IMG/VR virus record: IMGVR_UViG_3300002460_000041
Location: 3,340-49,276 of that record
DNA: 45,937 bases
Source: a virus
Reading direction: 5' to 3' (one strand)
Part shown: positions 17,692 to 29,281 of the stretch, piece by piece
Position numbering within the stretch: position 1 is the stretch's first letter
Layout of the letters: every line of letters begins with the position of its first letter
Notes under the pieces: model-generated
What the model was told of the DNA's origin: nothing
Database searches by the model: none
What the model saw: the letters and a program-made list of their open reading frames with translations, nothing else
Made by a program: the position numbers and the translations under genes

Positions 17692-18017
17692 GGCGTCACC
17701 GGGTCAGTCCACTTGGCGTTCGCCGCAATCCGCAATTCCGAGAGCCAGCCCATCTTGTGCAGGTCCGGCGAGTACATGGGCGCGCTGGATTCTCGCGCGG
17801 GATGGTAGGGCGCCTGCATGACTGGCGCATCCTCGGCTGTCCCTGGATGCGTCAGCTCGCGCGTGATGCTCCGGTGCAGGTCGCCTCGCAGGATCGCCGC
17901 TACAGATGAGCTATGAATGCCAAACTCCTGCCCGAGCGCCCGCTTGGCCGCGCCCGCCCAGCCCCGCCGGTAGATTTCCACGACCTGGGCGGCGTTGAGT
18001 TTTGCGCGGCGGGTCAT
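17688..18017 (-). CDS. helix-turn-helix DNA-binding early protein
   Basis: 109 residues. The first half reads 'KLNAAQVVEIYRRG', 'AKRALGQEFGIHSSSVAAIL' and 'RGDLHRSIT', the helix-turn-helix form seen at the N-terminus of many phage HNH-type and regulatory proteins ('L...QV.EI......A..FG....V..I..G'). The second half has no nuclease motif and looks flexible. It may be a small regulator or a truncated nuclease. ATGA coupling on both sides. Confidence 0.6.
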   Translation of the reverse strand: MTRRAKLNAAQVVEIYRRGWAGAAKRALGQEFGIHSSSVAAILRGDLHRSITRELTHPGTAEDAPVMQAPYHPARESSAPMYSPDLHKMGWLSELRIAANAKWTDPVTP

Positions 18018-18397
18018 TTCTCCACCGCCGTTCTGACCCTAGTTGCCGCGCGCTTCTCCTTCGGCAAGAGGCTGCGCAGGAAGGCCAGCTCCGCCTTCGC
18101 TAGGCGTAGGCACTCCTTGCAGCCGACGGCGCGATGCCGGACCTTGTGTCGCGGATGATCGTCATGTTGGTGGATACTCCACTCGGCATACGGGCTTCCA
18201 TCGCAAACCTGCTGGTGCGTTTTCTCGGCAATGGGGCAACCCGTACAACCCGCCACATAGAACTCTTTGCACAACGGGCAATTTGCTATCCCGCGATCCG
18301 GATTGCGTGGGGACGCAACGATCCGCCCCCATTTCTTGATTGACCCGTGCAGGGCCTTCAAAGTCGCCGGGTCCATAGGTGTGATCTTCTCGCTCAT
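18014..18397 (-). CDS. conserved phage Cys-rich protein
   Basis: 127 residues from the ATG at 18397 (ATGA with the nuclease stop). Contains 'LKALHGSIKKWGRIVA', then 'NCPLCKEFYVAGCTGCPIAE', 'HQQVCDGSPYAEWSIH' and 'VGCKECLRLAKAELAFLRSL'. This order (helix, CPLC, CxGCPIA, CxGSPY) is a recurring phage protein family of unknown function that likely binds zinc. C-terminal helix basic. Confidence 0.65.
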   Translation of the reverse strand: MSEKITPMDPATLKALHGSIKKWGRIVASPRNPDRGIANCPLCKEFYVAGCTGCPIAEKTHQQVCDGSPYAEWSIHQHDDHPRHKVRHRAVGCKECLRLAKAELAFLRSLLPKEKRAATRVRTAVEK

Positions 18398-18777
18398 TCC
18401 ATGGCCTCCATGACATCCTCCACGCTGCGCACGATGTAGTACCGGCCGCCGGACCGCTTCCAACGCCGCTCAAATTCCATCTGCGAGAGCCGCTGTCTAC
18501 CCGTCCGGCTTTTGACCTCAAAGGCGATAGGGGCAGCGGGGTGCCCTCCATCAATGCCGTGCCATTGCCCAATCCCCAAAATATCCGCCACTCCGTCCGC
18601 CCAGGCCCCGTCCTTCCACGCGCCCCCATGCATGACTCCCTTCACCTTGAGCGCCATGCGCATTGCTGTGACCGGCTCGACGCGAACAAAACACCAGCCA
18701 GGATACTTCGCCTGGAGGTATTCCAGGATCGCCAGGACAATTTCGCGCTCCTTCGGGTCGCGGAGTGGGAGCTTCAT
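18394..18777 (-). CDS. VRR-NUC domain nuclease
   Basis: 127 residues from the ATG at 18777, chosen because it overlaps the stop of the 39-residue ORF; an ATG four codons earlier also exists. The PD-(D/E)xK core is seen as Glu at 'REIVLAILEYL', 'WADGVADILGIGQ' and 'IAFEVKSRTGRQRLSQ', with 'GGRYYIVRSVEDVMEAM' at the end, the VRR motif region. VRR-NUC proteins act as structure-specific or Holliday-junction-type nucleases in replication and recombination. Close to the SSB-like gene, which fits. Confidence 0.85.
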   Translation of the reverse strand: MKLPLRDPKEREIVLAILEYLQAKYPGWCFVRVEPVTAMRMALKVKGVMHGGAWKDGAWADGVADILGIGQWHGIDGGHPAAPIAFEVKSRTGRQRLSQMEFERRWKRSGGRYYIVRSVEDVMEAME

Positions 18778-18893
18778 TTCGCATTCCATGGTGGAACATG
18801 CCCTGCGATGTCACCCCACGCCCAACGGGCGCACATCCACCATGAATGGCCCAGTTTTCGACGGGAGCGCCAGCGCCACAGCCATGCTTTCAT
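18774..18893 (-). CDS. 39-residue Trp/Arg-rich mini-protein
   Basis: Begins at ATG 18893 behind 'gatggagagggaggccac', an excellent ribosome site, and ends in an ATGA overlap with the nuclease. Very rich in Trp and Arg ('KAWLWRWRSRRKLGHSWW'), so it may bind membranes or nucleic acid. Not recognised. Confidence 0.5.
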   Translation of the reverse strand: MKAWLWRWRSRRKLGHSWWMCARWAWGDIAGHVPPWNAK

Positions 18894-19024
18894 GTGGCCT
18901 CCCTCTCCATCAGGGCCTTGACAGTGGAAGCAGGCGGGGCGTCCTGGGCGCCGGGAGGGGGACTACCGGCCGAACCGGGAACATCCCCGCCTGCTGTTCT
19001 AAAACGGAATGTCGTCGTCAACAT
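18890..19024 (-). CDS. possible 44-residue ORF overlapping the SSB-like gene end
   Basis: A frame from ATG 19024 to TGA 18890 ends in an ATGA overlap with the 39-residue ORF. It is Pro/Ala/Gly-rich ('GSAGSPPPGAQDAPPAS') with a helical tail 'TVKALMEREAT'. No convincing ribosome site precedes the ATG, and 26 bases overlap the upstream gene. The proper stop-start overlap at its end is the main reason to list it. Confidence 0.3.
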   Translation of the reverse strand: MLTTTFRFRTAGGDVPGSAGSPPPGAQDAPPASTVKALMEREAT

Positions 19025-19640
19025 AAACCGAATCATCATGGGTTTGTGCATCGTCCGCGCTGGCCGCAGGGGTTGAATGCTGAGTGCGCCAGATATCAAA
19101 TGCATCATCGAGGCCGGGCAATAGATCGCGGGACACCCATCGCTCCAATGTGAATACGGGGCGATAATTGATGCCATGCACACCTTTGATCGAATCCGTC
19201 CGCCCACACTGGAACACCGGCACTTCATCGGGCCTGGTCGATGCAAGGGCCTCGTATTCTCCGTACATGGCGTTGATCGTCTCGATGAACACGGCCGAGT
19301 TCGCCATGATTTCACGGACCCCGATTCGCTCATTCCGCGCACCTGGAACCTGTTGGGTGCCATACACCAATACGCGGAATCCGCGTTTGTGTTTTTCCGA
19401 CGGAGCATCTGCCTCCTGTTCCAACGTCAGGTCCCAGGTCACTTCAGGCAGGCCCCCCTGCGGATTGAATCGTATCCATCCTGTCTGGATGTGTGGGAAA
19501 TCAAACGCCAGCCTGAGTGGAATCGGTAGTTCCACATCGCCTTGAATGTCTTTGAATCGAGCGTAGAACCGCCCCGCCTTGGCGTTGTACTTCATGAAAG
19601 GGACAAAAGCGCCCGAATTTGAACGGAGATTGAGCGGCAT
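18999..19640 (-). CDS. single-stranded DNA-binding-like protein
   Basis: 213 residues from the ATG at 19640, preceded by a perfect 'aaggagg'. The N-terminal two thirds are beta-rich with many aromatics ('FVPFMKYNAKAGRFYARF', 'IRFNPQGG', 'ITYRP'-type strands). The C-terminus is acidic and ends 'DDSVYVDDDIPF', the typical tip by which SSB proteins contact replication and repair partners. It is not the E. coli SSB fold by sequence, but such tips are common in phage SSB replacements. Near the VRR-NUC and replication genes. Ends with TAG. Confidence 0.65.
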   Translation of the reverse strand: MPLNLRSNSGAFVPFMKYNAKAGRFYARFKDIQGDVELPIPLRLAFDFPHIQTGWIRFNPQGGLPEVTWDLTLEQEADAPSEKHKRGFRVLVYGTQQVPGARNERIGVREIMANSAVFIETINAMYGEYEALASTRPDEVPVFQCGRTDSIKGVHGINYRPVFTLERWVSRDLLPGLDDAFDIWRTQHSTPAASADDAQTHDDSVYVDDDIPF

Positions 19641-19642
19641 GG

Positions 19643-19687
19643 CTAGTCCTCCTTGACGGCGGGGAGATTGGTGGTTGGTTCGGTCAT
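19643..19687 (-). CDS. 14-codon leader ORF before the SSB-like gene
   Basis: ATG 19687 forms ATGA with the upstream stop; the ORF ('MTEPTTNLPAVKED') ends in TAG at 19643. Its last codons contain the aaggagg ribosome site of the SSB-like gene two bases downstream. It probably serves to keep ribosomes moving into the next start rather than to make a product. Confidence 0.3.
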   Translation of the reverse strand: MTEPTTNLPAVKED

Positions 19688-19890
19688 TGTGCCCCCTTGT
19701 ACTCGAAGATTTGAACGGTGACGCGGGAGACGCGGGTCGGCTGGATCGCTTGTGTTGCAATATCCCGCGCTTCATCTCGGCTTGGATAAAAACCGATCAA
19801 GTCCCACGGATCAAATTCCTCCGCGCGCGGCGTCCCCACGGCTTCTTGGACCATCCACGCGTTGAACTCCACAATCTTCTTGCCTTTCAT
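19684..19890 (-). CDS. hypothetical small early protein
   Basis: 68 residues from ATG 19890, behind 'ctaggaggcgcc'. Mixed alpha/beta: 'KIVEFNAWMVQEAVG', 'DLIGFYPSRDEARDIATQAI', 'VSRVTVQIFEYKGA'. The pattern helix-loop-strand with aligned charges suggests a small folded domain; no family recognised. The longer open frame upstream is not supported by a start signal. Confidence 0.6.
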   Translation of the reverse strand: MKGKKIVEFNAWMVQEAVGTPRAEEFDPWDLIGFYPSRDEARDIATQAIQPTRVSRVTVQIFEYKGAQ

Positions 19891-19898
19891 GGCGCCTC

Positions 19899-20312
19899 CT
19901 AGAGATTGGCTTGCACCCAGTTGATGTCGAAACAGCGATTCAGCATCAACTCGCGGCTGGCGCGGTCTGCCTGGCCCTGTAGCACCGCTTCTTCCTCTCG
20001 GGTAGGCTCCCCTATGGCTTTGCGCCATTCCTCGCCTTGGCGGGCCCTCCAGGGGCCTTCCCAGCGCGCTTTACGACATAGCGGCCCAGCCTTCAGCGCC
20101 TTCATCGAAGGCACGGGATTCCGCACCTTGAGAGACCCCACGTTCCATGGCTGATCTAGCTCTGCCTCCCACCTGCGCCACTCCCGGTCCCGGTACTCGG
20201 AGAGCGGATGCAGGCGGCACCACTCACCCCATGTGAAGGAGTGGTCCGGCTTCGGCTCATCCAGGGCTCTGAGGCGCGCGAGGGTGATTGCGACTTCTTC
20301 CTCGATGGTCAC
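19899..20312 (-). CDS. hypothetical helical early protein
   Basis: 137 residues from a GTG (20312) overlapping the previous stop (GTGA). Highly charged, helical and Trp-rich, with 'WGEWCRLHPLSEYRDREWRRWEAEL' in the first half and 'EEEAVLQGQADRASRELMLNRC' in the second. Could be a nucleic-acid or protein-binding helical bundle. Ends in TAG. Confidence 0.6.
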   Translation of the reverse strand: MTIEEEVAITLARLRALDEPKPDHSFTWGEWCRLHPLSEYRDREWRRWEAELDQPWNVGSLKVRNPVPSMKALKAGPLCRKARWEGPWRARQGEEWRKAIGEPTREEEAVLQGQADRASRELMLNRCFDINWVQANL

Positions 20313-20537
20313 GTCGCCACCTTGTTGATCGGTTTCGCAGCCTTGATCGCGGCGATTGCTCGCAGCTCGTTCGCCCTGTCCAAGAGGGCCGCAATCAGAC
20401 CCCCACCCCTGCCGTGGGGACTCTTAGAAAAATGCCCACGATCTGCACAGCGCCGGAGCGCCTCAGCCACGTCGTCCAGCTCCTCGGCCTCGTGCCGCAG
20501 GTCCTCGGGTGAGGTTGTGTCGATGTTGAAATGAGAG

Positions 20538-20545
<8 letters not shown>
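20309..20545 (-). CDS. hypothetical small helical protein
   Basis: 78 residues. 'EDLRHEAEELDDVAEALRRCAD' is a clear acidic helix, then a glycine-rich turn and 'LIAALLDRANELRAIAAIKAAK'. A helical hairpin is likely. Good ribosome site 'gagggagaat' before ATG 20545; the start overlaps the previous gene by 8 bases. Confidence 0.6.
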
Positions 20546-21145
<600 letters not shown>

Positions 21146-21149
<4 letters not shown>

Positions 21150-21331
21150 GTCGTCCCCTCTCGCATTGGTTTTGCGTACTTTGCTTTGAGCCGTGCCACC
21201 GCCATCTTCCAATCGAAAGCCTCCTTGGGCAATTCCACTGGCGGGCGGGCTTGATCCGCAAGGCGAGCGGCGGCCTTGGCGTAATACACTAGGCCAGCAT
21301 TTTGTTTATCCGGCTGTGAGTGCCGAGCCAT
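21146..21331 (-). CDS. hypothetical small basic protein
   Basis: 61 residues, basic, one or two helices ('GLVYYAKAAARLADQARPP', 'KEAFDWKMAVARLKAKYAK'). It overlaps the end of the replication gene by 26 bases and ends in an ATGA with the next gene. Only a weak GAG ribosome site; translation may depend on ribosomes leaving the upstream gene. Confidence 0.5.
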
Positions 21332-22085
21332 CTCGATTTAGCCCCCGTGACTCTGCGCAGCGGCCACAATACTTGTCCGTTGCCTCAATCGGTTTGCCGC
21401 AGGTGTCGCATCGGCCTTCAAGCACCCGGCGCGCCTGCGGCCGTTCATCCTCCCATCGAGAATTGTGCAGCCACGTCGCGGCGTGGGGAATGAACCGGCC
21501 ATCGTCTTTCGTCCAGTCTGGCGATCCACGCTGCCACGTCACCGCCCTTTGAATCCTGGCCCTCAACTCGGCGTCCGGTTTCAGTTTGTTCCATGCCGCC
21601 CTCGCGTTGGCCTTGGCGACCTTGCGCGGGTACTGTGACCAAAACTCAAGAAATCCAGATTCGTCGGCCATGGTAGTTGTAGTTTTCTTGTTTATTGTCT
21701 TATTGCTTATTGTATTGTGTGCTCGTTCTGTGCTCTCCGCGTGCTCAAGTTGTGCTCGATCCGTGCGCTCATCACCCGTAGAAGTGCTTGTAGACTGGAT
21801 TTGACCGCGCTCAAACTGTGCTCTCTCCGTGCTCTCTCCGTGCTCAAGCCGTGCTGTGTTTCCGGTGCTTTTCCTGACAACCTCATGGGCTTGCGCATAC
21901 GCAAGAATCGACCTGGCCCAGCTATGGCTTTTGTCGAATTGCCGCGCCAGCGCCCTGATTCCATTCTGTAGTGCCCCCGTCTCGTAGTCTCTGTGGCGCA
22001 TCAGCCACAGGTAGGCTTGCAGCTTCACCGGGTCCCGGATCTCATCAAACACGTCGTTTGGAAGCTGGATGAACCCGTTGCCCAT
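21306..22085 (-). CDS. phage replication protein (replisome organizer / DnaD-like)
   Basis: 259 residues from ATG 22085; a TTG five codons upstream is the alternative. The N-terminal winged-helix-type domain reads 'FIQLPNDVFDEI' and 'ALQNGIRALARQFDKSHSWARSIL' (about 4-70). A low-complexity linker with near repeats 'LEHGESTERAQ' and 'LEHAESTERAH' follows. The C-terminal domain is typical of phage O or DnaD-like initiators: 'FLEFWSQYPRKVAKANARAAW' and 'PHAATWLHNSRWEDE'. A zinc ribbon ('CDTCGKP', 'YCGRCAES') ends the protein. It would load the host helicase at the phage origin. Its mRNA leader is unusually structured. Confidence 0.8.
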   Translation of the reverse strand: MGNGFIQLPNDVFDEIRDPVKLQAYLWLMRHRDYETGALQNGIRALARQFDKSHSWARSILAYAQAHEVVRKSTGNTARLEHGESTERAQFERGQIQSTSTSTGDERTDRAQLEHAESTERAHNTISNKTINKKTTTTMADESGFLEFWSQYPRKVAKANARAAWNKLKPDAELRARIQRAVTWQRGSPDWTKDDGRFIPHAATWLHNSRWEDERPQARRVLEGRCDTCGKPIEATDKYCGRCAESRGLNRDGSALTAG

Positions 22086-22107
22086 CGTTGATCCGAGCAA
22101 AAGGCCG

Positions 22108-22191
22108 CCCAGGCGCGCTGAGGCTCCGCCGGGTGGGGACTGCGGAACGCGCCTGGGGGCACAATCGGTAATCGGGACTTTGGAGCCTCAG
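22108..22191 (-). promoter_or_regulatory. pseudoknot-like leader before the replication gene
   Basis: Two perfect 10-bp inverted repeats are interleaved: arms 22191-22182 with 22127-22118 (CTGAGGCTCC/GGAGCCTCAG) and arms 22157-22148 with 22117-22108 (CCCAGGCGCG/CGCGCCTGGG). On the minus strand the order is A-B-A'-B', with A' and B' directly adjacent. The RNA could therefore form an H-type pseudoknot or switch between two hairpins. The predicted transcript start falls at the first arm, and the gene's ATG lies about 22 bases after the last arm, so control of initiator translation is the natural reading. Confidence 0.6.
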
Positions 22192-22196
22192 TGACC

Positions 22197-22226
22197 AGCA
22201 TACTGCTCCCCCTGCGCGATTGTCAA
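22197..22226 (-). promoter_or_regulatory. sigma70-type promoter for the replication gene
   Basis: On the minus strand TTGACA (22226-22221) and TATGCT (22202-22197) are separated by 18 bases, a good match to the sigma70 consensus. The expected start near 22190 coincides with the beginning of the pseudoknot-like leader. Confidence 0.6.
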
Positions 22227-22279
22227 GCGAGTGTGCCGTCCCTGGCAATGGCCCCGTCCCTGCGGCCTCCTGCTACACT

Positions 22280-22395
22280 GGTGAACTGACGTGAGCGGGG
22301 ATCTTGCATCCGGGGCCTGGATGGAAGGTGGCAACGCTCCAAGCCTCAGCACCGCGCCTTGCGGTTAGCGGCATCCCCGCTCACGTCAGTTCACC
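22280..22395. repeat. 23-bp perfect inverted repeat with 70-base loop
   Basis: Arms 22280-22302 and 22373-22395 are exact reverse complements. The right arm contains the stop codon of the 67-residue minus-strand gene. The loop is GC-rich. It lies about 55 bases upstream of the replication gene promoter. Candidate roles are replication origin structure, transcription barrier between operon parts, or a stable small RNA. Confidence 0.8.
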
Positions 22396-22589
22396 GTTGA
22401 GACATCCACTGCGCCCGGCGCCTCCTGCTCCATTTCCGCAATCCGCAAGTGCGCCGCGATCTGCCTGTGGATTTGGCGCAGAATATGCAACTGAGATTGC
22501 ACGAGCAGCAGCGAGACATCCACTACTTCGGATTGTCGTGCGGCCCGGTCCAGCAGCAGGCGCATCAGGGCTGTGTCGTCTGGAGTCAT
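22386..22589 (-). CDS. hypothetical helical early protein
   Basis: 67 residues, nearly all helical: 'DDTALMRLLLDRAARQSEVVDVSLLLVQSQ' and 'LRQIHRQIAAHLRIAEMEQ'. ATGA coupling to the upstream gene (22589-22586). Its stop lies in the right arm of the 23-bp inverted repeat. Not recognised. Confidence 0.6.
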   Translation of the reverse strand: MTPDDTALMRLLLDRAARQSEVVDVSLLLVQSQLHILRQIHRQIAAHLRIAEMEQEAPGAVDVSTVN

Positions 22590-22978
22590 TGGGGGCCTCT
22601 CATCTTGGCAAGCAGTGCGCGGGCAAAGACGGCTTGATCCGCGAGCCCGGAATCACAGGCTATTTCGTTTGGCAGCGTTCGCTCTGGCCCACCGGCGATA
22701 TCGGAAACGATGGCCTCTAGCGCCTCGATGATCTCCGGCCAAAGGGCGAGCTTGCGGGCCTGCTCGGCTTCTTCTCGCTTGCGAGCCGTCTCCGCCTTCA
22801 ATCGCACAGTGCGGGCGGATTCATGCGCAGCATCAATTGCGGCCAACTTTGCCTCCCGCTTGATCGGGTCATGGACGCCGCAGTACCACTCACCATCAAC
22901 CTTGATCTTGCCTGGATAAGGGCAGGGGTGGCCGGTGTAACTCCCGGCATAGATTCGCTTGCTACACTTTCCGCTCAT
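22586..22978 (-). CDS. Zn-binding early protein with coiled-coil
   Basis: 130 residues. The N-terminal Cys/His module 'CSKRIYAGSYTGHPCPYPGKI', then 'WYCGVHDP' (CX..GHPC..YCxxH), is a small treble-clef-like zinc site found in many phage early proteins. A charged helix follows ('ARTVRLKAETARKREEAEQARK'), then a short C-terminal domain. Its ATG comes 14 bases after the 25-bp stem element. Confidence 0.65.
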   Translation of the reverse strand: MSGKCSKRIYAGSYTGHPCPYPGKIKVDGEWYCGVHDPIKREAKLAAIDAAHESARTVRLKAETARKREEAEQARKLALWPEIIEALEAIVSDIAGGPERTLPNEIACDSGLADQAVFARALLAKMRGPQ

Positions 22979-22992
22979 TTCACACCCTTCTC

Positions 22993-23152
22993 TAGGCGTT
23001 CAAGGTGACGGAAGATGGCCCGTCTCGTACCGTGCGAGGCTCCGTCCAATCGCACGGGTTGGGCACCCCCTTGGGAGCTACGTCGGCCGGCTATGGTCGT
23101 GGCCCTAGGATTGTCACGATAACGCCGCATCTTCCGCCACCCTCAGCGCCTA
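22993..23152 (-). ncRNA. structured element closed by a 25-bp stem
   Basis: Arms 22993-23017 and 23128-23152 pair over 25 positions as minus-strand RNA with only two mismatches, including two G-U pairs. The 110-base interior contains a second exact 8-bp hairpin (23030-23037 with 23050-23057). The stop codon of the 54-residue gene sits in the outer stem and the next start is 14 bases beyond it. This could be a small RNA, an RNase III processing site or a translation-separating structure. No tRNA or known riboswitch hallmark was recognised. Confidence 0.5.
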
Positions 23153-23314
23153 TTTCTTCGCGGGCGGTTCCCAGATCATGCTCAGCGCGGCGCAAACCTC
23201 CTGGCCGAACGCATCCCACTGGATTTGGGTCATGGACGCCTTGAGCGCCTTCAGTTCCGCCATGCTGACAACGGGCGGCGCGAAGAACTTCATGATGGCT
23301 GCGGTCGTGTTCAT
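23150..23314 (-). CDS. 54-residue early mini-protein
   Basis: Opens at ATG 23314 behind 'agagggaatc' and ends with TAG at 23152-23150. Sequence begins 'MNTTAAIMKFFAPPVVSMAE', then a helix 'LKALKASMTQIQWDAFGQEV' and a tail 'WEPPAKK'. It has normal codon use and a good ribosome site. Not recognised. Confidence 0.55.
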   Translation of the reverse strand: MNTTAAIMKFFAPPVVSMAELKALKASMTQIQWDAFGQEVCAALSMIWEPPAKK

Positions 23315-23339
23315 GATTCCCTCTTGTTCTGGTTAACGC

Positions 23340-23483
23340 CTACTTCTTCGGGCGCAGCTTGAGGCAATTCTTGCACGTCACATCGCGCCAATAGCGCGTG
23401 ACCTTGGGCCACCAGCCGATGGTGCGACAAACAGCCGCCGCGCTCGTTCCAATCTCCTTGTGCGTCACATTCGGCTTGCTCAT
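23340..23483 (-). CDS. 47-residue basic mini-protein with CxxC
   Basis: ATG 23483 to TAG 23340. 'SKPNVTHKEIGTSAAAVCRT' looks like a short helix-turn-helix start. 'WWPKVTRYWRDVTCKNCLK' carries one CxxC, and the end is 'RPKK'. The ATG is in frame with, and 30 bases after, the TAG of the upstream 68-residue gene. Possibly a nucleic-acid-binding peptide. Confidence 0.55.
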   Translation of the reverse strand: MSKPNVTHKEIGTSAAAVCRTIGWWPKVTRYWRDVTCKNCLKLRPKK

Positions 23484-23513
23484 GACTCGCTCCGCAAGAA
23501 TTGTGCCATCACG

Positions 23514-23720
23514 CTACGCGATCCGCCAGATGCGGTATCCACCCTCGACTTTGCGCGAGGAAAATTTGCAGCCGTTGGCCTTCCCGGCCTTGGTCACGAT
23601 GCTCCGGGCTTTGCCATCCGGCGTGAAAAACGAATCGCCGACTTCCATGTCTCGCCACGGGTATTTGGCGGGTCCGCCATTGAAATTCGGCCGTTCGATT
23701 CCCTTCTCGATTTCGTACAT
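23514..23720 (-). CDS. conserved small phage protein
   Basis: 68 residues. 'MYEIEKGIERP' then 'KYPWRDMEVGDSFF' and a C-terminal 'GGYRIWRIA' match a recurrent phage family, often annotated only as hypothetical ('..KGI..P......YP...M.VGDSF......RV.R'). A small beta-barrel-like fold is plausible. Ends with TAG. Confidence 0.65.
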   Translation of the reverse strand: MYEIEKGIERPNFNGGPAKYPWRDMEVGDSFFTPDGKARSIVTKAGKANGCKFSSRKVEGGYRIWRIA

Positions 23721-23727
23721 CGTGCCT

Positions 23728-24021
23728 CTAGGTTTGGGCGGTGTGGGGCTTCACCGCGCGCCGAGCTTCCAGGGCCTCAAGCACCAGGCGCTCGTGCATT
23801 TCGCTGCGGTTGCCATCGGCTTCTCGCTTCGCCAACTCGTCAATTTTCTCAATCAGCGAGTAGCGCAGGCTCAGGTTCACGCCGAGTTTTGGATCGTATT
23901 TGGTCATGGCTCCTGCGCTGAATGGGTAGGTCCCTCTCTGCCGGACTCTCGCATGCTGTTTCATAGTTGTCAAGTAGAAACTTCCAGCGCCCACAGAGTC
24001 AGGGCACCCGTCAGCTTTCAT
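23728..24021 (-). CDS. ribbon-helix-helix-type small regulator
   Basis: The core 'KLGVNLSLRYSLIEKIDELAKREADGNRSEMHERLVLEAL' has the strand-helix-helix pattern of Arc/CopG-type DNA-binding proteins. Two starts are possible. ATG 24021 overlaps the previous stop (ATGA) and gives 97 residues with a 38-residue N-terminal extension coded by the 46-bp repeat. ATG 23907, after 'gcaggagcc', gives 59 residues, the usual size for this fold. I favour the shorter protein as the functional domain. Confidence 0.6.
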   Translation of the reverse strand: MKADGCPDSVGAGSFYLTTMKQHARVRQRGTYPFSAGAMTKYDPKLGVNLSLRYSLIEKIDELAKREADGNRSEMHERLVLEALEARRAVKPHTAQT

Positions 24022-24022
24022 T
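23977..24022. repeat. 46-bp direct repeat, copy 1
   Basis: Nearly identical (two differences) to 24322-24367. On the minus strand it begins at an ATG that overlaps an upstream stop and encodes 'MKADGCPDSVGAGSF'. Both copies sit at the start of an open frame, so the repeat may move or copy a translation start with its first 15 codons. Confidence 0.85.
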
Positions 24023-24176
24023 CCGGGGCCTCGGCCTTGGCGATGGCATCCCGACAATTAGCGTACACGTCCACCGTGTTGTGATATTCGGGATGCGATT
24101 CCAGGATTACCTCCAGCAGCGTGCAGGCTTCTTTCAGCGCCGCGAGCAGGTGATCGCAAGCTTCTTTGGTCATCAT
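24018..24176 (-). CDS. 52-residue early mini-protein
   Basis: ATG 24176 (second Met one codon on) to TGA 24018, which overlaps the ATG of the next frame. Helical: 'MTKEACDHLLAALKEACTLL' then 'VILESHPEYHNTVDVYANCR' and 'DAIAKAEAPE'. Regular codon use and clear helices suggest a real small protein. Not recognised. Confidence 0.55.
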   Translation of the reverse strand: MMTKEACDHLLAALKEACTLLEVILESHPEYHNTVDVYANCRDAIAKAEAPE

Positions 24177-24193
24177 GGTGTCACTCGGTTAGA

Positions 24194-24213
24194 GCGCCAA
24201 GCCGACTTGGCGC
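24194..24213. promoter_or_regulatory. 8-bp hairpin between mini-genes
   Basis: GCGCCAAG-CCGA-CTTGGCGC is an exact 8-bp stem with a 4-base loop, 18 bases before the 52-residue gene on the minus strand. There is no U run; it could be an attenuating hairpin or a protein-binding site. Confidence 0.4.
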
Positions 24214-24243
24214 GGGTTGGCGGTCGATTTTCGGCATTCGCGT

Positions 24244-24366
24244 TCACGAAGGAACAGCGGTCAGGAATTGCCAGAAAGGCCGTGAATGCGCGGTGGGAGC
24301 GCACGAAGAAATTTTCGCCCGGAAACTTCCAGCGCCCACAGAGTCAGGGCACCCGCCAGCCTTCAT
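24244..24366 (-). CDS. 40-residue ORF starting in repeat copy 2
   Basis: ATG 24366 overlaps the stop of a 15-codon ORF (24363-24410, 'MAPRVIFPLDLERRQ') that itself overlaps the 49-residue gene. The product begins 'MKAGGCPDSVGAGSF' like copy 1, then diverges into Ser/Phe/Pro-rich sequence of no evident fold. It may be a decayed duplicate; a clean start is its only support. Confidence 0.3.
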   Translation of the reverse strand: MKAGGCPDSVGAGSFRAKISSCAPTAHSRPFWQFLTAVPS

Positions 24367-24367
24367 T
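24322..24367. repeat. 46-bp direct repeat, copy 2
   Basis: Second copy of the 23977-24022 repeat, 345 bases away, same orientation, two differences. Contains the start of the 40-residue minus-strand ORF. Confidence 0.85.
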
Positions 24368-24394
24368 GCCGGCGCTCCAGGTCTAGGGGGAAGA

Positions 24395-24544
24395 TCACGC
24401 GCGGAGCCATTTTCGCGGCGACTTCCCCCATTGCGGCGTGACCACGGCGGCGCCGAGGGCCGCACGGATGGATTCGGCCTGATCCGCTGTGACGCCCTGC
24501 ACTACTAGCCCCTTCGGGCTGTACGGCTTGACCGTGATATCCAT
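24395..24544 (-). CDS. 49-residue early mini-protein
   Basis: ATG 24544 follows 'gcagggggacacc' and the frame ends at TGA 24395. 'MDITVKPYSPKGLVVQGVT' followed by 'ADQAESIRAALGAAVV' and 'TPQWGKSPRKWLRA' gives a strand-helix-strand pattern with a basic end. Codon use is normal. The leader upstream shares 15 bases (ending gtgaaccta) with the leader near 14085. Confidence 0.55.
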   Translation of the reverse strand: MDITVKPYSPKGLVVQGVTADQAESIRAALGAAVVTPQWGKSPRKWLRA

Positions 24545-24616
24545 GGTGTCCCCCTGCTTAGGTTCACTGCGTCCTGCGTCCAGGTCTGCCGCCGGTCGCC
24601 CAGCGGCAGGGTGGGC

Positions 24617-24949
24617 TCAGGCGCTAATCCGCGCTGCGATCTCTCGGATCAACCTCACTGCTGTGTACGGTTTCGCGCCGCCTGGGTGCACGGACAGGTT
24701 CGCATCGCCGTGGCGATAGCCGGTGACCATGTTGTAGCCGCCGCCCTGCGCAGGTGAGTGATTCGAGCATCGGATCAGCAGCTCGTCGTCGATCAGCACA
24801 TATCGCGACGTTCCACTCCCATGCACCTCGGCGGTCAGTCCGAGTTCCTCCGCATATCTCGCGAGGGCGTCTGCGTGCTCCCACGGGAGGAGAGTCATCC
24901 CAAACATCGCGTGCTCGCGGGGCCGATAAGGCGGGAATTTGATCGCCAT
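24617..24949 (-). CDS. first gene of the leftward early operon, unknown function
   Basis: 110 residues from ATG 24949, behind 'gaggtggagggagac'. The open frame extends to 25015, but that Met lies inside the promoter -10 box, so the later start is right. The protein is mixed alpha/beta: 'FGMTLLPWEHADALARYAEEL', 'TSRYVLIDDELLIRCSNHS', 'VTGYRHGDANLSVHPGGAK' and 'TAVRLIREIAARISA'. Being first in the operon it is probably made early, as many host-takeover proteins are. Not recognised. Confidence 0.65.
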   Translation of the reverse strand: MAIKFPPYRPREHAMFGMTLLPWEHADALARYAEELGLTAEVHGSGTSRYVLIDDELLIRCSNHSPAQGGGYNMVTGYRHGDANLSVHPGGAKPYTAVRLIREIAARISA

Positions 24950-25010
24950 GTCTCCCTCCACCTCATCTCCCGGCACCCGGCCGGTGCGTCCTGTCTCGAT
25001 TGTTGAGTCC

Positions 25011-25038
25011 ATCATATCATAGCCTGTAATGATGTCAA
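25011..25038 (-). promoter_or_regulatory. strong leftward early promoter
   Basis: Minus strand TTGACA (25038-25033), 16-base spacer, TATGAT (25016-25011): five of six -10 positions and all -35 positions match sigma70. Transcription should start near 25004 and feed the whole minus-strand early region. It lies about 40 bases from the repressor operator, so direct or looping control by the XRE protein is possible. Confidence 0.75.
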
Positions 25039-25075
25039 GCTCCCTCCCCCAATCTCCATAATCGTATGTACAATA

Positions 25076-25099
25076 ACACGGCTTGACAACACGCCGTGT
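25076..25099. promoter_or_regulatory. operator for the XRE repressor
   Basis: ACACGG at 25076 and CCGTGT at 25094 form an inverted repeat; a tighter palindrome ACACG-C-CGTGT lies at 25089-25099. These three half-sites overlap the -35 box and spacer of the rightward promoter, the expected place for autorepression by the adjacent repressor. Confidence 0.55.
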
Positions 25100-25110
25100 C
25101 TGTGTAATGC
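25083..25110 (+). promoter_or_regulatory. rightward repressor promoter, probably leaderless
   Basis: TTGACA (25083-25088), 16-base spacer, TAATGC (25105-25110). The repressor ATG at 25117 is where transcription would begin, and no ribosome site precedes it, so the mRNA is likely leaderless, as for lambda cI from its maintenance promoter. Confidence 0.6.
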
Positions 25111-25116
25111 TGGCCC

Positions 25117-25464
25117 ATGGACACTCTGCAATCTCGCCTGGCTGGCGCCCGCAAGGCCGCTGGCCTCACACAAGCCACTGCGGCTAGACGCCTCCTAGTG
25201 ACCACCACGACGGTTGCGCGGTGGGAACTGCGCTCAGGCCAGTATCGCCCTACCCTGGCCCATCTAGAGGACCTGGCGAGCCTCTACGGTGTGACCCTCG
25301 GCGCGCTGCTCGACAATCCGCCTGTGCTGGGCCGCTGGGCGCGGGATCATTTCCAGAGGTCCGGCAGTCTCGGCCCTCCTATAGGTCAGTCGATTCAGCC
25401 GCTGTCCATCGAGGACCAGGTCGCGGAGGAATTCGCCAGCCTACAGTCCGAGCAAGAGCCATGA
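25117..25464 (+). CDS. XRE-family helix-turn-helix repressor
   Basis: 115 residues. Residues 4-62 form a Cro/CI-type helix-turn-helix: 'LAGARKAAGLTQATAARRLLVTTTTVARWE' and 'PTLAHLEDLASLYGVTLGALL'. The C-terminal part is short and acidic, without an S24 autoproteolysis domain, so RecA-triggered cleavage is not expected. It lies downstream of a palindromic operator and divergent from the early operon, so it probably controls a lysis-lysogeny-like or timing switch. No integrase is present in the window. Confidence 0.85.
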   Translation: MDTLQSRLAGARKAAGLTQATAARRLLVTTTTVARWELRSGQYRPTLAHLEDLASLYGVTLGALLDNPPVLGRWARDHFQRSGSLGPPIGQSIQPLSIEDQVAEEFASLQSEQEP

Positions 25465-25569
25465 CACAAGGAGTTGGACACCGCGCAAACAGTGGTGCTT
25501 CCCCACCGAGCCGGAGCCGCCGCTCACCATACACCTGCAGCCAGCCTCAACAGCTAGGATATCTGCTGT

Positions 25570-26091
25570 GTGGGGCAGGATGGGGAGCCAATGAGCCCGC
25601 TTGAACGATTCCGCCTGATCCGACGCCTCACGCTGTCTGGCTCTGCCAAGTGCCTCTTGTTTGTCCTGGCGTCACACGCCAGCCGTGATGGCATTTGCTA
25701 CCCCGGCCTGCGCTTGCTCGCCCAAGAAACAGGTTACAGCGAGCGCACCATTCGCACCTGCTACCGGCTACTCAAAGCCGAGGGATTGTTGATCCTACGC
25801 CATCGCCGAGGGCGCTCTACTCTGGTCAAGCTGACACTCGATGCGTATGTCTCGCTCCTCAATACCCCGGCAACCATTGCCGCACCACCCCGGCAACCAT
25901 TGCCGGCAGAAGTAGCCCAAGTGAAGGCTACCACTCGCAAGCCCTCTCCGCGACCCTGGACTATGCCCTGCTCCCGCTGTGGCGCCATCATGCGCTCAAC
26001 CAAACGCAAGGCTGAGGCCGTTTGCAGCGCCTGCTCTCAAAACATACCCACCGCGGACGTAATCGCCCTGTTCCCGGAAGCCAAACGCTAG
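25570..26091 (+). CDS. HTH_36-type helix-turn-helix protein with Zn-ribbon
   Basis: 173 residues; the ATG at 25591 ('MSPLERFRLIRRL') is an alternative start. Residues 10-95 have the winged-helix layout of phage and plasmid replication or regulatory proteins: 'SAKCLLFVLASHASRDGICYPGLRLLAQETGYSERTIRTCYRLLKAEGLL' in outline. The C-terminal part after a Pro/Thr-rich linker holds 'MPCSRCGAIM' and 'AVCSACSQ', a zinc ribbon like that of the replication protein at 21306. May take part in replication or transcription control. The 105 bases before it hold no other gene. Confidence 0.7.
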   Translation: MGQDGEPMSPLERFRLIRRLTLSGSAKCLLFVLASHASRDGICYPGLRLLAQETGYSERTIRTCYRLLKAEGLLILRHRRGRSTLVKLTLDAYVSLLNTPATIAAPPRQPLPAEVAQVKATTRKPSPRPWTMPCSRCGAIMRSTKRKAEAVCSACSQNIPTADVIALFPEAKR

Positions 26092-26129
26092 CCTTGCCCT
26101 CACCCCCCAACTGCGCTATGAGGTAGACC

Positions 26130-26321
26130 ATGCGCGAAGCCTTCACCCTCTGCCTGACCGGCGTGGCCGTTGCGATCGGCGGCGCCTTCTTGGTGCTCGC
26201 TCAGGAACTCATTCCAGCGGTTCCTGCATGGCACTCAGGACTCCTCATCGCCCTCGGCCTCCTGCTCATAACCGAGGCCGTAGCCCTGTGGGTAATCGTG
26301 ACAGACAAGTCTCCAAAATGA
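26130..26321 (+). CDS. small two-TM membrane protein
   Basis: 63 residues, membrane segments about 7-27 ('LCLTGVAVAIGGAFLVLAQE') and 37-57 ('SGLLIALGLLLITEAVALWV'). Ends with a short basic tail. Found between regulators and the structured operator-like region; could be a superinfection-exclusion or membrane-sensing protein, but the sequence alone does not show it. Confidence 0.55.
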   Translation: MREAFTLCLTGVAVAIGGAFLVLAQELIPAVPAWHSGLLIALGLLLITEAVALWVIVTDKSPK

Positions 26322-26326
26322 GACGG

Positions 26327-26377
26327 CATGACAAATATGTCATGACCAAAATGTCAGTGTGGCGAGAATGACACACT
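26327..26377. promoter_or_regulatory. cluster of TGACA/TGTCA inverted repeats
   Basis: CATGACA-AATA-TGTCATG (26327-26344) is an exact 7-bp palindrome. It is followed by TGTCA (26352) and TGACA (26369) and by AGTGTG...CACACT (26356-26377). Such clustered half-sites look like binding sites for a dimeric regulator. The surrounding 26322-26724 stretch is otherwise without a convincing gene. Confidence 0.45.
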
Positions 26378-26403
26378 CAAACGCAAAGACAGGGGCCTAG
26401 GTC

Positions 26404-26649
26404 ATGGGTATTCATTCCGTCGCGAGCCGCGAGGCCAATCGCCACCAGGGCGCTACCTGCTCCTGCTCGGCGCCCATCGCCATTCTGTCTGTGCGCACTG
26501 AGGCGCGATGCACCACGCTGCATGGTGTGTGCTCGATGTGTGGATCACGTGCGGTAATTGCCATTACCGCAGCAATCCGCAGGCCGCCCCCTCAGAGGCT
26601 GGCAGGGAAGGCCCCCCTACCCCCTCGGCGCAAACGCCGATTCTTATAA
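26404..26649 (+). CDS. doubtful 81-residue ORF
   Basis: Begins after 'ggggcctagg', so a ribosome site exists. The Cys content ('TCSCSAPI', 'CSMCGSRAV') and Pro/Arg-rich end do not resemble a folded protein. The region may instead be regulatory DNA. Listed for completeness. Confidence 0.2.
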   Translation: MGIHSVASREANRHQGATCSCSAPIAILSVRTEARCTTLHGVCSMCGSRAVIAITAAIRRPPPQRLAGKAPLPPRRKRRFL

Positions 26650-26674
26650 TCGGAACTCACCCGTAACATACTAA

Positions 26675-26702
26675 TTACACGAGCGGCGAATTTTGGTATA
26701 TA
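26675..26702 (+). promoter_or_regulatory. rightward promoter for the sugar/packaging operon
   Basis: TTACAC (26675-26680), 16-base spacer, TATATA (26697-26702). Transcription would start near 26709, just before the GGGGAG ribosome site of the gene at 26725. It is in a locally AT-rich stretch. It could drive the sugar and terminase genes; the -35 match is only moderate. Confidence 0.45.
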
Positions 26703-26724
26703 ACGCGCATGGGGAGTTTCGCTG

Positions 26725-26937
26725 ATGATTCGGCTAGCCGTTTTGTGGAAGTCGATTAAGCGCCATCCTATAGCGTGGTGGTTTGCACTGCCAGCATCGG
26801 TTGTGTTCTTTGCTTTGGCTGTGTACAGGCTGTGGTTGGATTCACCGGCTGTGGCTGTGTTTTCGATGGGAGCCTACGCGGCGGTCTGCGGTTTGCTGGC
26901 GTGGTTGAACTTTCTCGATGAAAACGGGCTGCTTTAG
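26725..26937 (+). CDS. small two-TM membrane protein
   Basis: 70 residues with basic N-terminus ('LWKSIKRHPIAWW') and two membrane segments (about 17-37 and 44-63). The ribosome site GGGGAG lies nine bases before the ATG. Its end overlaps the following gene by 20 bases. Function unknown; first gene behind the putative rightward promoter. Confidence 0.6.
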   Translation: MIRLAVLWKSIKRHPIAWWFALPASVVFFALAVYRLWLDSPAVAVFSMGAYAAVCGLLAWLNFLDENGLL

Positions 26938-27247
26938 AGAACGAGGACAGGTGCGAATCTACCGTGTACCGACAGGGATGCTTCATGGGAATCGACCAGA
27001 GCCATTGCCGGCGGGGTCGATGTCTTATGCAGCACAGATGTTGCGCATTGGCGTGCGGCAGGAGCGGGACGGGCGGTTGCTGCGGATCGAGCAAGTGCGA
27101 GACCTTCACCGCAAGGATTGTGTGATGTGGATCGAGCATTGGGAGAGGGCGGTGTACAAGGTCCCCACGATGTCAAGGCAGGTCGCGGCGTACTATTTGG
27201 CGAAGCTGGGGGATGGGGTAATCTTCGAGGATAAGGTTTCCAAATGA
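26918..27247 (+). CDS. hypothetical protein before pseB
   Basis: 109 residues, mixed and basic, with 'GQVRIYRVPTGMLHG', 'RLLRIEQVRDLHRKDCVMW' and 'RQVAAYYLAKLGDGVIFED'. It overlaps the upstream gene by 20 bases and couples to pseB by ATGA (27244-27247). The DNA here and in pseB is strikingly G-rich and C-poor on the plus strand. Not recognised; a partner of the sugar cluster is possible from position alone. Confidence 0.5.
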   Translation: MKTGCFRERGQVRIYRVPTGMLHGNRPEPLPAGSMSYAAQMLRIGVRQERDGRLLRIEQVRDLHRKDCVMWIEHWERAVYKVPTMSRQVAAYYLAKLGDGVIFEDKVSK

Positions 27248-28350
27248 GCGGTGATCTGGACGGCAAATCGGTTCTCGTGACGGGAGGGACGGGGACATTC
27301 GGGAGGGCGTTCTTCCGGCATGTGCTGAGGGAGTACAAGCCGAGGCGGCTGATTTGTTTTTCTCGGGACGAGTTCAAGCAGTGGGAGTTGCGGGGAGAGC
27401 TGCGGGCTGAGTTAGGAGAGGAAGCGATCCGGTGTATGCGGTGGTTCATTGGGGACGTGAGGGATTTGGAGCGGCTGCGGATGGCATTCAGGCCGGTGGA
27501 CATTGTGGTTCACGCGGCGGCTTTGAAGCACGTTCCCACGGGGGAGGTCAATCCGATTGAGGTTATCAAGACGAATGTGATGGGGGCGGAGAATGTGGTT
27601 ACGGCGGCGATAGAGCAGGGGGTGGAACGGGTCATGGCGCTATCGTCGGATAAGGCATGCGCGCCGATCAACTTGTATGGGGCGAGCAAGCTGTGCGCGG
27701 AGAAGTTGTTTGTGGCGGCCAATGCCTTGTCGGGGGATGGGGGGGCGCGGTTCGCGGCGGTCAGGTATGGAAATGTGATCGGGTCGCGGGGGTCGGTGGT
27801 GGAGCTGTTCTTTGAGCAGGCCAGGAGTGGGGGGCCGCTGACCATCACAGACCGGCGGATGACGCGGTTCTGGCTCAGGATTGAGAGGGGTGTCGAATTC
27901 GTGTGCGAGTGCTTGGGGCGGATGCGGGGAGGGGAGATTTTCGTGCCGCTGTGCCCGTCGGGGCTTGTGGTGGATTTGGCGGAGGCGGTGTCGCCTGGAG
28001 TCCCTTGGGTTGAGACGGGGATTCGGCCTGGGGAGAAGATGCACGAGAGCCTGATTTCGGATGTGGAGGCGCGCACGACGGTTGCTATCGAGGGCGGGTA
28101 CATCATCGAGCCGGAGGCGGACTGGTATGAGCGACAACATGACGGTGGGACAAGAGTGGAGGGAAGGAATGGCGGCTATCAATCCGATACGAACAACTGG
28201 TTGCTCGGCGCCGCCAGCCTGCGAGCCCTCGTCCACTCGGCCGATCCTCCTGTCCCGGCACCAGATCGAGCCGCAGGACATCGAGGCGGTGACGGCGATG
28301 CTCAAGTCGGGGGAGGACTTGACGCGGGGGCGCCAGACCCGGGCCTTTGA
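27244..28350 (+). CDS. pseB: UDP-N-acetylglucosamine 4,6-dehydratase (inverting), PseB-like
   Basis: 368 residues; PseB proteins are usually near 330. It converts UDP-GlcNAc to UDP-2-acetamido-2,6-dideoxy-beta-L-arabino-hexos-4-ulose, the first step to pseudaminic acid. The NAD(P)-binding 'VLVTGGTGTFGRAF' and the catalytic 'SSDKACAPINLYGASK' (Asp-Lys plus YxxxK) are intact. The family-type end 'YQSDTNNWLLGAASLRALV' is at about residues 312-330. The remaining 38 or so residues are Gly/Asp/Pro-rich and run inside the PseC coding region, so the native stop seems lost. Base composition differs from pseC. Confidence 0.88.
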   Translation: MSGDLDGKSVLVTGGTGTFGRAFFRHVLREYKPRRLICFSRDEFKQWELRGELRAELGEEAIRCMRWFIGDVRDLERLRMAFRPVDIVVHAAALKHVPTGEVNPIEVIKTNVMGAENVVTAAIEQGVERVMALSSDKACAPINLYGASKLCAEKLFVAANALSGDGGARFAAVRYGNVIGSRGSVVELFFEQARSGGPLTITDRRMTRFWLRIERGVEFVCECLGRMRGGEIFVPLCPSGLVVDLAEAVSPGVPWVETGIRPGEKMHESLISDVEARTTVAIEGGYIIEPEADWYERQHDGGTRVEGRNGGYQSDTNNWLLGAASLRALVHSADPPVPAPDRAAGHRGGDGDAQVGGGLDAGAPDPGL

Positions 28351-29281
28351 GGAAGAATTTGCCGCCTATGCCGGAGCGAGGTACGCGGTGGCCTGTTCGT
28401 CTGGCACGGCGGCGCTATGGCTGGCGGCTCAGGCATGTTCGGTTATATCTGGGCCATGGCAGGTTCCGGCGATCACGTTTGCCGCGACCCGGAACGCGCT
28501 GGATTCCTTTGAGATCGTGGACTGCGACCCTGACACGGGGTTGGGCAAGTTCACGCAAGACCCAGCCCTCGCCGTCATGTACGCCGGGCAAACTGCCGGG
28601 GGTGGGAACTTGATCGTCGATGCGGCGCATGCGCTGGGTTCCGTGTTGTGCGATGGAATCAAGGTGGGCGGGAAAGCCACGCTAACTTGCTTCTCATTTC
28701 ACCCGGCCAAGACGATCACGACCGGAGAGGGCGGTATGGTCACGACCCCGGATGAAGGGCTGGCGCGGGAAATGCGCCGACTTCGGGACAATGGGATCGT
28801 GCGCTCCCGGAAGGATCCGCCGGGTTGGTACGACAACTCGGGCTTCGGGCTCAACTTCCACATGGGAGAAATGGGGGCGGCGCTGGGGCGGAGCCAGTTA
28901 CGCCGCATCGAGAGCATCCTACAAGAGCGGCGCAACTTGGTTCGGCACTATCTGTTCCGCATTCCAGATTCCGTGCGCCCGATACTCCAGTCGGAGGGCG
29001 GATACTGCGATGAAGATATGCTCCGTCGCAACGCCTGCCACATCTTCCCGGTCTTGATCGACTTCGAGGCCCTGGGCACGACCCGGGAGCGCGTGATGTA
29101 CGATCTGCTGCGGCGCGGTATTGAAACCAATGTGCATTACGTGCCGCTCAAACGCGGACTGCCCGGAGCGGAGGAATTTTACCGGCGCGAATTGACCTTG
29201 CCCCTGCATTGCGGCATGACTTTGCAGGATGTAGGCTACGTGTGCGCTGTCCTCGCCGAGGTCCTGCATGAGCAAGTTTAA
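28169..29281 (+). CDS. pseC: UDP-4-keto-6-deoxy-sugar aminotransferase, PseC-like
   Basis: 370 residues from ATG 28169, chosen for its 'ggagggaagga' ribosome site. It is a PLP-dependent DegT/DnrJ/EryC1 family enzyme that would aminate C4 of the PseB product using glutamate. Visible features are 'YAVACSSGTAALWLAAQA', 'LIVDAAHALGS' (Asp of the cofactor pocket), 'TCFSFHPAKTITTGEGGMV' with the Schiff-base Lys, and the C-terminal 'ETNVHYVPLKRGLPGAEEFY' and 'LPLHCGMT'. It overlaps pseB by 182 bases in another frame, and the first 25 residues before 'ILLSRHQIEPQD' look like an extension caused by this overlap. Confidence 0.88.
   Translation: MAAINPIRTTGCSAPPACEPSSTRPILLSRHQIEPQDIEAVTAMLKSGEDLTRGRQTRAFEEEFAAYAGARYAVACSSGTAALWLAAQACSVISGPWQVPAITFAATRNALDSFEIVDCDPDTGLGKFTQDPALAVMYAGQTAGGGNLIVDAAHALGSVLCDGIKVGGKATLTCFSFHPAKTITTGEGGMVTTPDEGLAREMRRLRDNGIVRSRKDPPGWYDNSGFGLNFHMGEMGAALGRSQLRRIESILQERRNLVRHYLFRIPDSVRPILQSEGGYCDEDMLRRNACHIFPVLIDFEALGTTRERVMYDLLRRGIETNVHYVPLKRGLPGAEEFYRRELTLPLHCGMTLQDVGYVCAVLAEVLHEQV

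Follow-up and report, generated by a model that had tools for sequence, protein, structure and literature searches.

The replication locus and its leader

The window analysed here, the whole stretch of 45,937 nucleotides (positions 3340-49276 of a 49,276-base virus record), carries on its minus strand at 21306-22085 a gene for a replication initiation protein (rep). The rep product matches the replication initiation family phrog_270 (7.3e-28) as well as phrog_9474 (2.6e-26), and no Pfam model matched it. The ATG at 22085-22083 was used as the start codon; the TTG at 22100, where the ORF list begins rep, was dropped because relatives align only from the ATG onwards. Upstream, a sigma-70-like promoter, TTGACA-18 bp-TATGCT (22197-22226, minus strand), predicts a transcript start at about 22190, and two inverted repeats lie between the promoter and the ATG. 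On the plus strand, 22108-22117 (CCCAGGCGCG) is 100% complementary to 22148-22157 (CGCGCCTGGG), and 22118-22127 (CTGAGGCTCC) is 100% complementary to 22182-22191 (GGAGCCTCAG). Read along the rep (minus) strand, the order is arm B’ (22182-22191, CUGAGGCUCC in RNA), 24 nt, arm A’ (22148-22157, CCCAGGCGCG in RNA), 20 nt, arm B (22118-22127, GGAGCCUCAG in RNA) and, 0 nt further on, arm A (22108-22117, CGCGCCUGGG in RNA). Arm B’ lies at the predicted 5’ end of the transcript, A’ and A are the 5’ and 3’ halves of a terminator-like hairpin, and B is located within the A’/A loop, abutting A. Stem A’/A is strong and can be extended by GCC/GGC with a bulge. The tail behind the extended stem (CUUUUGCU) holds only four consecutive U residues (22099-22102, minus strand), a tract that is weak for an intrinsic terminator. 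A putative weak Shine-Dalgarno-like element, GGA (22092-22094, minus strand), is found 6 nt before the ATG.

An initial annotation of this DNA had described two exact 10-bp inverted repeats, interleaved and with two arms touching, and they were found exactly as described. Its placement of the transcript start at the first arm by the TTGACA/TATGCT promoter also held, as the predicted start is 1 nt from arm B’ and 0/400 local shuffles gave an equally good promoter at that position. The same is true of its distance to the replication gene, given as about 22 bases past the last arm: the ATG of this phrog_270 gene lies 22 nt downstream of the end of arm A. A start at G22189 instead would cost B’/B two pairs. 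Promoter-like sites across the 10-kb region were not in excess (4 found vs 2.9 expected), and none was found on the plus strand of 18000-28000.

Just upstream of the rep promoter is a 23-bp perfect inverted repeat (22280-22302 and 22373-22395) with a 70-nt branched loop. It contains the stop codon of an ORF at 22386-22589 (minus strand), and on either strand its fold is far more stable than those of shuffles (z -7.4 and -7.9). The viral contigs yielded no copy of its arm, and the genome contigs none of the arm pair. Rfam listings of the hairpin as miRNA and ybhL families fell far below the gathering scores and were taken as chance, and pairing of the hairpin (22280-22395) with the leader was also rejected, since the hairpin loop resembles arms A and B but not significantly. 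The sequence CCGTCCCTG occurs twice, at 22236-22244 and 22254-22262, 18 bp apart and just upstream of the rep -35 element; these copies are possible activator or repressor sites. Within rep, GTGCTC-based repeats are found at 21721-21865, and phage MR13 has direct repeats at a comparable rep position (L077, 4244-4302). Given these two sets of repeats, and by analogy with lambda O, where the origin lies within the gene, an iteron origin inside the window rep gene is likely.

Other features of the window were recorded as well. PseB (TIGR03589, above cut-off) and then a PseC-like aminotransferase (below its cut-off) are encoded at 27244-29281, representing the pseudaminic-acid pathway on a phage. 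The gene at 25570-26091, adjoined by a CI/Cro-like regulator at 25117-25464, encodes a second protein whose N-terminal domain resembles replication-initiation proteins (phrog_1032, 1.5e-10). The 749-aa protein of 14169-16418 is a helicase fused to an N6/N4 DNA methyltransferase, for which 71 relative loci were found in viral contigs. An array of GGCGGCGTC-like units with periods of 9, 24 and 33 occupies 20610-20747.

Chance controls, folding and relatives of the window

An interleaved pair of exact stems, each at least 10 bp long, arose in 0/60 dinucleotide shuffles of the whole window and in 0/20,000 local dinucleotide shuffles of 108 nt; one exact stem of at least 10 bp alone was present in 0.6% of the local shuffles. 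Among 157 other phage loci (1,416,326 bases), 282 inverted repeats of at least 10 bp were identified, with 0 interleaved pairs. With wobble pairs and stacking energies included, the pseudoknot score of the window was reached by 0/300 shuffles, in a test whose leaders were picked as the best ones. No copies of the arm sequences beyond chance were found elsewhere in the window, and arm B at 0 mismatches has only its single pair there. The interleaved arrangement in the window is not chance, and the earlier claim that two exact 10-bp repeats in 84 bases are improbable was borne out by both sets of shuffles and by the 1.42 Mb of natural sequence.

Nested folding of 22192-22085 preferred A’/A (-45.1 kcal/mol) to B’/B, which gave -40.1 kcal/mol when forced. 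B’/B is the best fold while the transcript reaches B and A has yet to appear. With B’/B forced, CUGGGCG of arm A is predicted to pair with UGCUCGG over the Shine-Dalgarno region; A’/A uses the same bases. Local nested stability was modest (z -2.2, with 6/200 shuffles as good), which is expected if one of two stems has to be omitted. The two stems have no nucleotide in common, and the loops of 24, 20 and 0 nt should permit both at once, with B and A as one continuous 20-nt strand. The flip between two hairpins that had been proposed is thus upheld only in part: the stems compete in nested folding, but with no shared nucleotides they can coexist as a pseudoknot.

Searches with Rep returned one short match (L004) and no close relative in viral contigs, and 0 matches in genome contigs. 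In the collections searched, the portal protein had no relatives, the terminase had a single relative at 21%, and the exact B-A 19-mer had no matches; blastn of 21000-24000 likewise gave none. When 14 window proteins were compared with the phage loci fetched by then, Rep alone matched (2 loci). An alignment-based Rep scan was limited to the best 80 of 554 distant relatives which, with six others, gave 86 upstream regions. Exact interleaved stems (within 130 nt, stems of at least 8 bp) were present in 1/86, namely L142, and a ranking of 87 rep upstream regions by their weaker stem placed L142 first, the window second and L096 next. The pseudoknot scan trims overlaps, since the A stem can be extended by two pairs that reach into arm B. 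Two loci in the upstream ranking were set aside: L090, whose stems resemble coding sequence, and L154, which had the lowest p though rep is embedded there and was counted as expected noise.

In most annotated relatives that were read, rep lies inside an operon, so that there is no leader to compare. In MR13, psageK9, Fyn8, Ab105-2phi, Olaya, CF183a, SE-1, AB1 and MD-2021a, fewer than 50 nt separate rep from the gene upstream, and those operon-type named phages that were run through the pseudoknot scan contained no comparable pseudoknot. IME307 and Pam4 have longer gaps before rep, yet no U-tailed pseudoknot was found in them. The initial annotation had named relatives that keep the gene without the stems as evidence against its reading; most distant relatives are indeed without the leader, but rep is operon-embedded in most of the annotated ones read.

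A shared layout before replication genes of other phages

The layout of the window recurs before replication genes in unrelated phages. The common order is a promoter-like site, arm 1, the 5’ half of a hairpin, the partner of arm 1, the 3’ half, often a U tract, and the replication gene, and the promoter-like sites place the RNA start near arm 1. L142 has stems of 15 and 15 bp that include wobble pairs, a 2-nt gap from B to A, and no proper U tract. L160 combines stems of 14 bp and 9 bp, 0 nt apart, with a U-rich run and a short stretch between hairpin and rep. In L094, a TTGACA promoter is followed by TGCGATGCTACA, which pairs with TGTGGCATCGCA over 12 bp, and by a terminator with U7; in L137, a terminator stem precedes U6, and L121 has the 7-nt loop of an 18-bp terminator and U7. 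Another gene precedes rep in L117 (15 and 11 bp, 1 nt apart, U5), in L138 (a 16-bp terminator whose loop takes part in 7 bp, U-rich run) and, as read from its sequence, in L096, which has no U tract on the sense strand. The downstream proteins of L142, L137, L160, L138, L094, L117 and the clade members L176 and L177 match phrog_270 and phrog_9474. The best-matching promoter start was at most 5 nt from the chosen arm in 14/14 leaders (up to 14 nt being allowed), and the promoter was weak or no better than shuffles in several of them (254/400 for L142 and 237/400 for L094b, against 0/400 for the window). Wobble pairs in several stems favour pairing of RNA rather than DNA.

Enrichment near rep was assessed in 2,947,360 strand-bases from loci fetched before the idea arose or for checking named phages, with thresholds for the layout that were chosen after the first examples had been seen. 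U-tailed pseudoknots with a summed stem energy of -40 or below occurred five times in these 2.95 Mb. Three of the five (L117, L160 and L138) fall within 620 nt upstream of rep, a zone that makes up 1.73% of the bases. The fourth, L121, lies directly before the rep ATG but was coded as not near rep, since the open frame there extends back into the leader. A second leader in L094 (372-482) accounts for the fifth. The mean over twenty shuffles was 1.0 such hits in all and 0.05 near rep. The excess fades at the weaker threshold of -30 (33 vs 20.8, with 3 near rep). The second pseudoknot-terminator leader of L094 lies about 2.2 kb upstream of the rep one, has different arms and stands before a small gene of unknown role. 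At 2187-2304, L138 has the elements TTCGTAC, GTACGAG and CTCGTAC, the middle one able to pair with either side, like seqA/B/C of phage P4. The occurrence of one layout in sequence-unrelated phages suggests an overlooked RNA control of phage DNA replication.

Covariation could be followed in two clades. L093, L121, L140, L151 and L156 have one upstream gene in common, the first four with leaders of two related classes. The upstream protein of clades J and K (119 aa), which we take to be VRR-NUC-like, was used in a scan that gave 80 loci with 59 distinct downstream stretches. A terminator-plus-Shine-Dalgarno leader was present in 49/80 loci (38 of class K and 11 of class J), and 29 of these 49 had a Rep-profile hit within 3 kb downstream, as the first gene in 25. 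Among the other first genes, those of L180 and L190 match primosomal-protein PHROGs. In both clades the Shine-Dalgarno sequence, GGAG or GGGG, comes right behind the U tract.

The class-K alignment comprised 19 distinct leaders, 7 J-class rows of the 26 distinct leaders being left out; the K leaders L190, L209, L216 and L236 were missed by the pattern and lie outside the alignment, and were later matched by the class-K model. In class K, the loop of a 5’ hairpin pairs with a segment within the terminator loop in 99.1% of cells. Both sides changed at 3/6 pairs of this loop-loop helix, which occurs as TTGACG/CGTCAA, TTGGAA/TTCCAA, TTGGTA/TACCAA, TTGGCA/TGCCAA and TTGCAG/CTGCAA. A second long-range helix was paired in 95.6% of cells, with 4/6 pairs changed on both sides. 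The whole structure showed 60 double-change cells vs 16.9 in shuffles (0/500 as high) and a covariation score of 0.348 vs 0.178, and pairing of 89.8% fell to 28-46% with slid partners. The number of pair types was not above shuffles (23 vs 27.4), the outer pair of helix 1 fails in 10/19 leaders, and helix 4 is 83.4% paired, partly as two subclasses are out of register in the alignment. Class J provided one clean double change, from GGTCAAG/CTTGACC to GGACAAG/CTTGTCC.

The class-K covariance model R1 had no match to the window at E up to 1, nor did the class-K model match L142, L094, L137, L160, L138 or L117; the window is therefore tied to the other leaders by layout and not by homology. No Rfam match at or above the gathering threshold was obtained in the window or in 23 leader-bearing loci. 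Variation around the conserved upstream gene was also seen. Across clades J and K (L176-L247), leader and upstream gene are constant, while the replication protein encoded after them exchanges its N-terminal half between several types. L192, L217, L221, L222, L234, L244, L248 and L253 carry another leader class below the same gene, in which a small conserved ORF and a large hairpin lacking a U tract precede the next gene. In L230, L231, L238, L239, L243 and L250-L252, clusters of TTATCCACA, presumably DnaA-box-like, replace the terminator leader.

Proposed control of rep and its alternatives

Rep expression in the window is probably controlled by a cis-acting RNA leader whose 5’ end takes part in a pseudoknot with a terminator-like hairpin. 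Transcription of rep would begin at about 22190, making B’ the extreme 5’ end of the RNA. B’ would pair with B inside the loop of the A’/A hairpin, so that both stems form one pseudoknot, and as B’/B would form first during transcription, it may delay or reshape the A’/A hairpin. The outcome could be that RNA polymerase reads through or does not (attenuation), or that the Shine-Dalgarno region is freed or masked, and the leader would in this way set in cis the amount of initiator made. That the RNA structure is a selected feature is well supported. The shuffle and natural-sequence controls show that the window leader is not chance, and a leader role is supported by the first arm at the predicted RNA start. 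The pseudoknot-like rep leader of the initial annotation stands in that its arms exceed chance, its first arm is at the predicted 5’ end and its layout recurs before genes of the same family, one clade showing compensatory changes; we infer its folding as a pseudoknot, its ON state, what shifts the balance and transcription attenuation by this leader. Since the U tract of the window is weak, control may also act on translation. The window most likely holds a functional pseudoknotted rep leader that acts on termination, translation or both.

RNA control of initiator genes is classic in plasmids and in the satellite phage P4, and the gene behind the pT181 leader is the initiator gene of that plasmid. 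A short pseudoknot in ColIb-P9/IncB activates translation of repZ, coupled to a leader peptide; the window likewise has a pseudoknot within a rep mRNA leader, but its stems are long and no leader peptide is established. In pT181, the 5’ half of the terminator is occupied by an anti-terminator, which gives it up once an antisense RNA has bound the 5’ hairpin, and this binding begins with a kissing contact (PMC4878617). The resemblance to pT181 lies in an untranslated leader with a 5’-proximal element and a terminator-like hairpin ahead of the gene, and clades J and K have kissing-type loops. Unlike in the pT181 scheme, B’ of the window pairs with the loop segment B that abuts the 3’ half A, and the stems do not overlap; no anti-terminator pairing with the terminator 5’ half was found in the window, the partner of B’ being B. 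In P4, transcription of the replication genes is cut short by the CI RNA through pairing with seqA and seqC (PMC4825925). Phage replication genes and an untranslated leader with complementary segments are common ground with that account, and premature termination may be so too; P4 differs in that a processed antisense RNA pairs with two copies; the window has one pair per arm and no Rfam match, and two target copies for one regulatory segment were not found in it. The c4 antisense RNA of P1/P7-like phages, listed in PMC2864571, is similarly a phage regulatory RNA with complementary segments, but Rfam matches neither the window nor the 23 leader-bearing loci to it. By analogy, the window leader would work like the pT181 or P4 rep leaders in position and logic while being a member of neither; it was not filed with them because no antisense promoter and no seqA/B/C set were found.

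Several other readings were weighed against cis-acting attenuation. The leader may act on translation or RNA stability only, its pseudoknot protecting the 5’ end or exposing and masking the Shine-Dalgarno region. The weak U tract of the window, the want of a proper one in L142 and L096, the predicted pairing of arm A over the Shine-Dalgarno region when B’/B is forced, and a 5’ end that would be sealed in a stem if B’/B forms are all consistent with this; we nevertheless regard it as somewhat unlikely, given the U-rich run after the hairpin in L094, L137, L138, L160, L117 and clades J and K, where in both clades the Shine-Dalgarno sequence directly follows the tract. Control of immunity or copy number by RNA in the manner of P4 or pT181, with a short terminated leader or separate RNA acting in trans on nascent rep leaders, is unlikely. 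The position before a replication gene is equal, the 23-bp hairpin lies upstream of the window promoter, and L138 has a third element, TTCGTAC, at its 5’ end, so that GTACGAG can pair on both sides, like the seqA/B/C layout of P4 (PMC4825925). Against a trans-acting RNA, no opposite-strand promoter (at least 9/12 matches) was found in the 440 nt around the window leader, one of 8/11 leaders tested that have none, and the match of the 23-bp hairpin loop to arms A and B was not significant (424/5000 shuffles and 44/1295 real 70-nt windows).

It is improbable that the inverted repeats serve as DNA sites, whether as operators for a protein or as an origin-like element. In favour are an overlap between the first arm and the start site and two neighbours, the 23-bp perfect inverted repeat and the pair of 9-bp direct repeats upstream of the -35 element. 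Against it, copies of the arms elsewhere in the window do not exceed chance, and the G-U pairs of other phages, their strand-specific U tracts and the placement between promoter and start codon indicate RNA. Still more remote is an origin by chance, or as the neutral trace of an inversion or duplication in the region; the searched collections yielded no close relative through which conservation of the two stems could be tested, which leaves this reading some room, but the shuffle and natural-sequence controls and the recurrence of the layout before rep in unrelated phages speak the other way.

The cis-acting leader could have a wider meaning. Tentatively, and with more doubt than belief, we suggest that rep genes with their own promoter are commonly under an unrecognised class of pseudoknot attenuators, in which the 5’ end of the nascent RNA would pair into the loop of a terminator hairpin located immediately ahead of the start codon. 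The layout would be kept among unrelated sequences, the terminated leaders might serve as factors of RNA immunity or copy number as well, and the window would be one member. No description of RNA leader control as a general device of tailed-phage rep genes was found in the portions of the open-licence literature consulted. At least one RNA family is added by clade K, with two covarying long-range pairings that are unmatched by Rfam release 15. A layout that is shared while its sequence varies would supply orthogonal natural attenuators and account for the way such phages adjust the dose of initiator.
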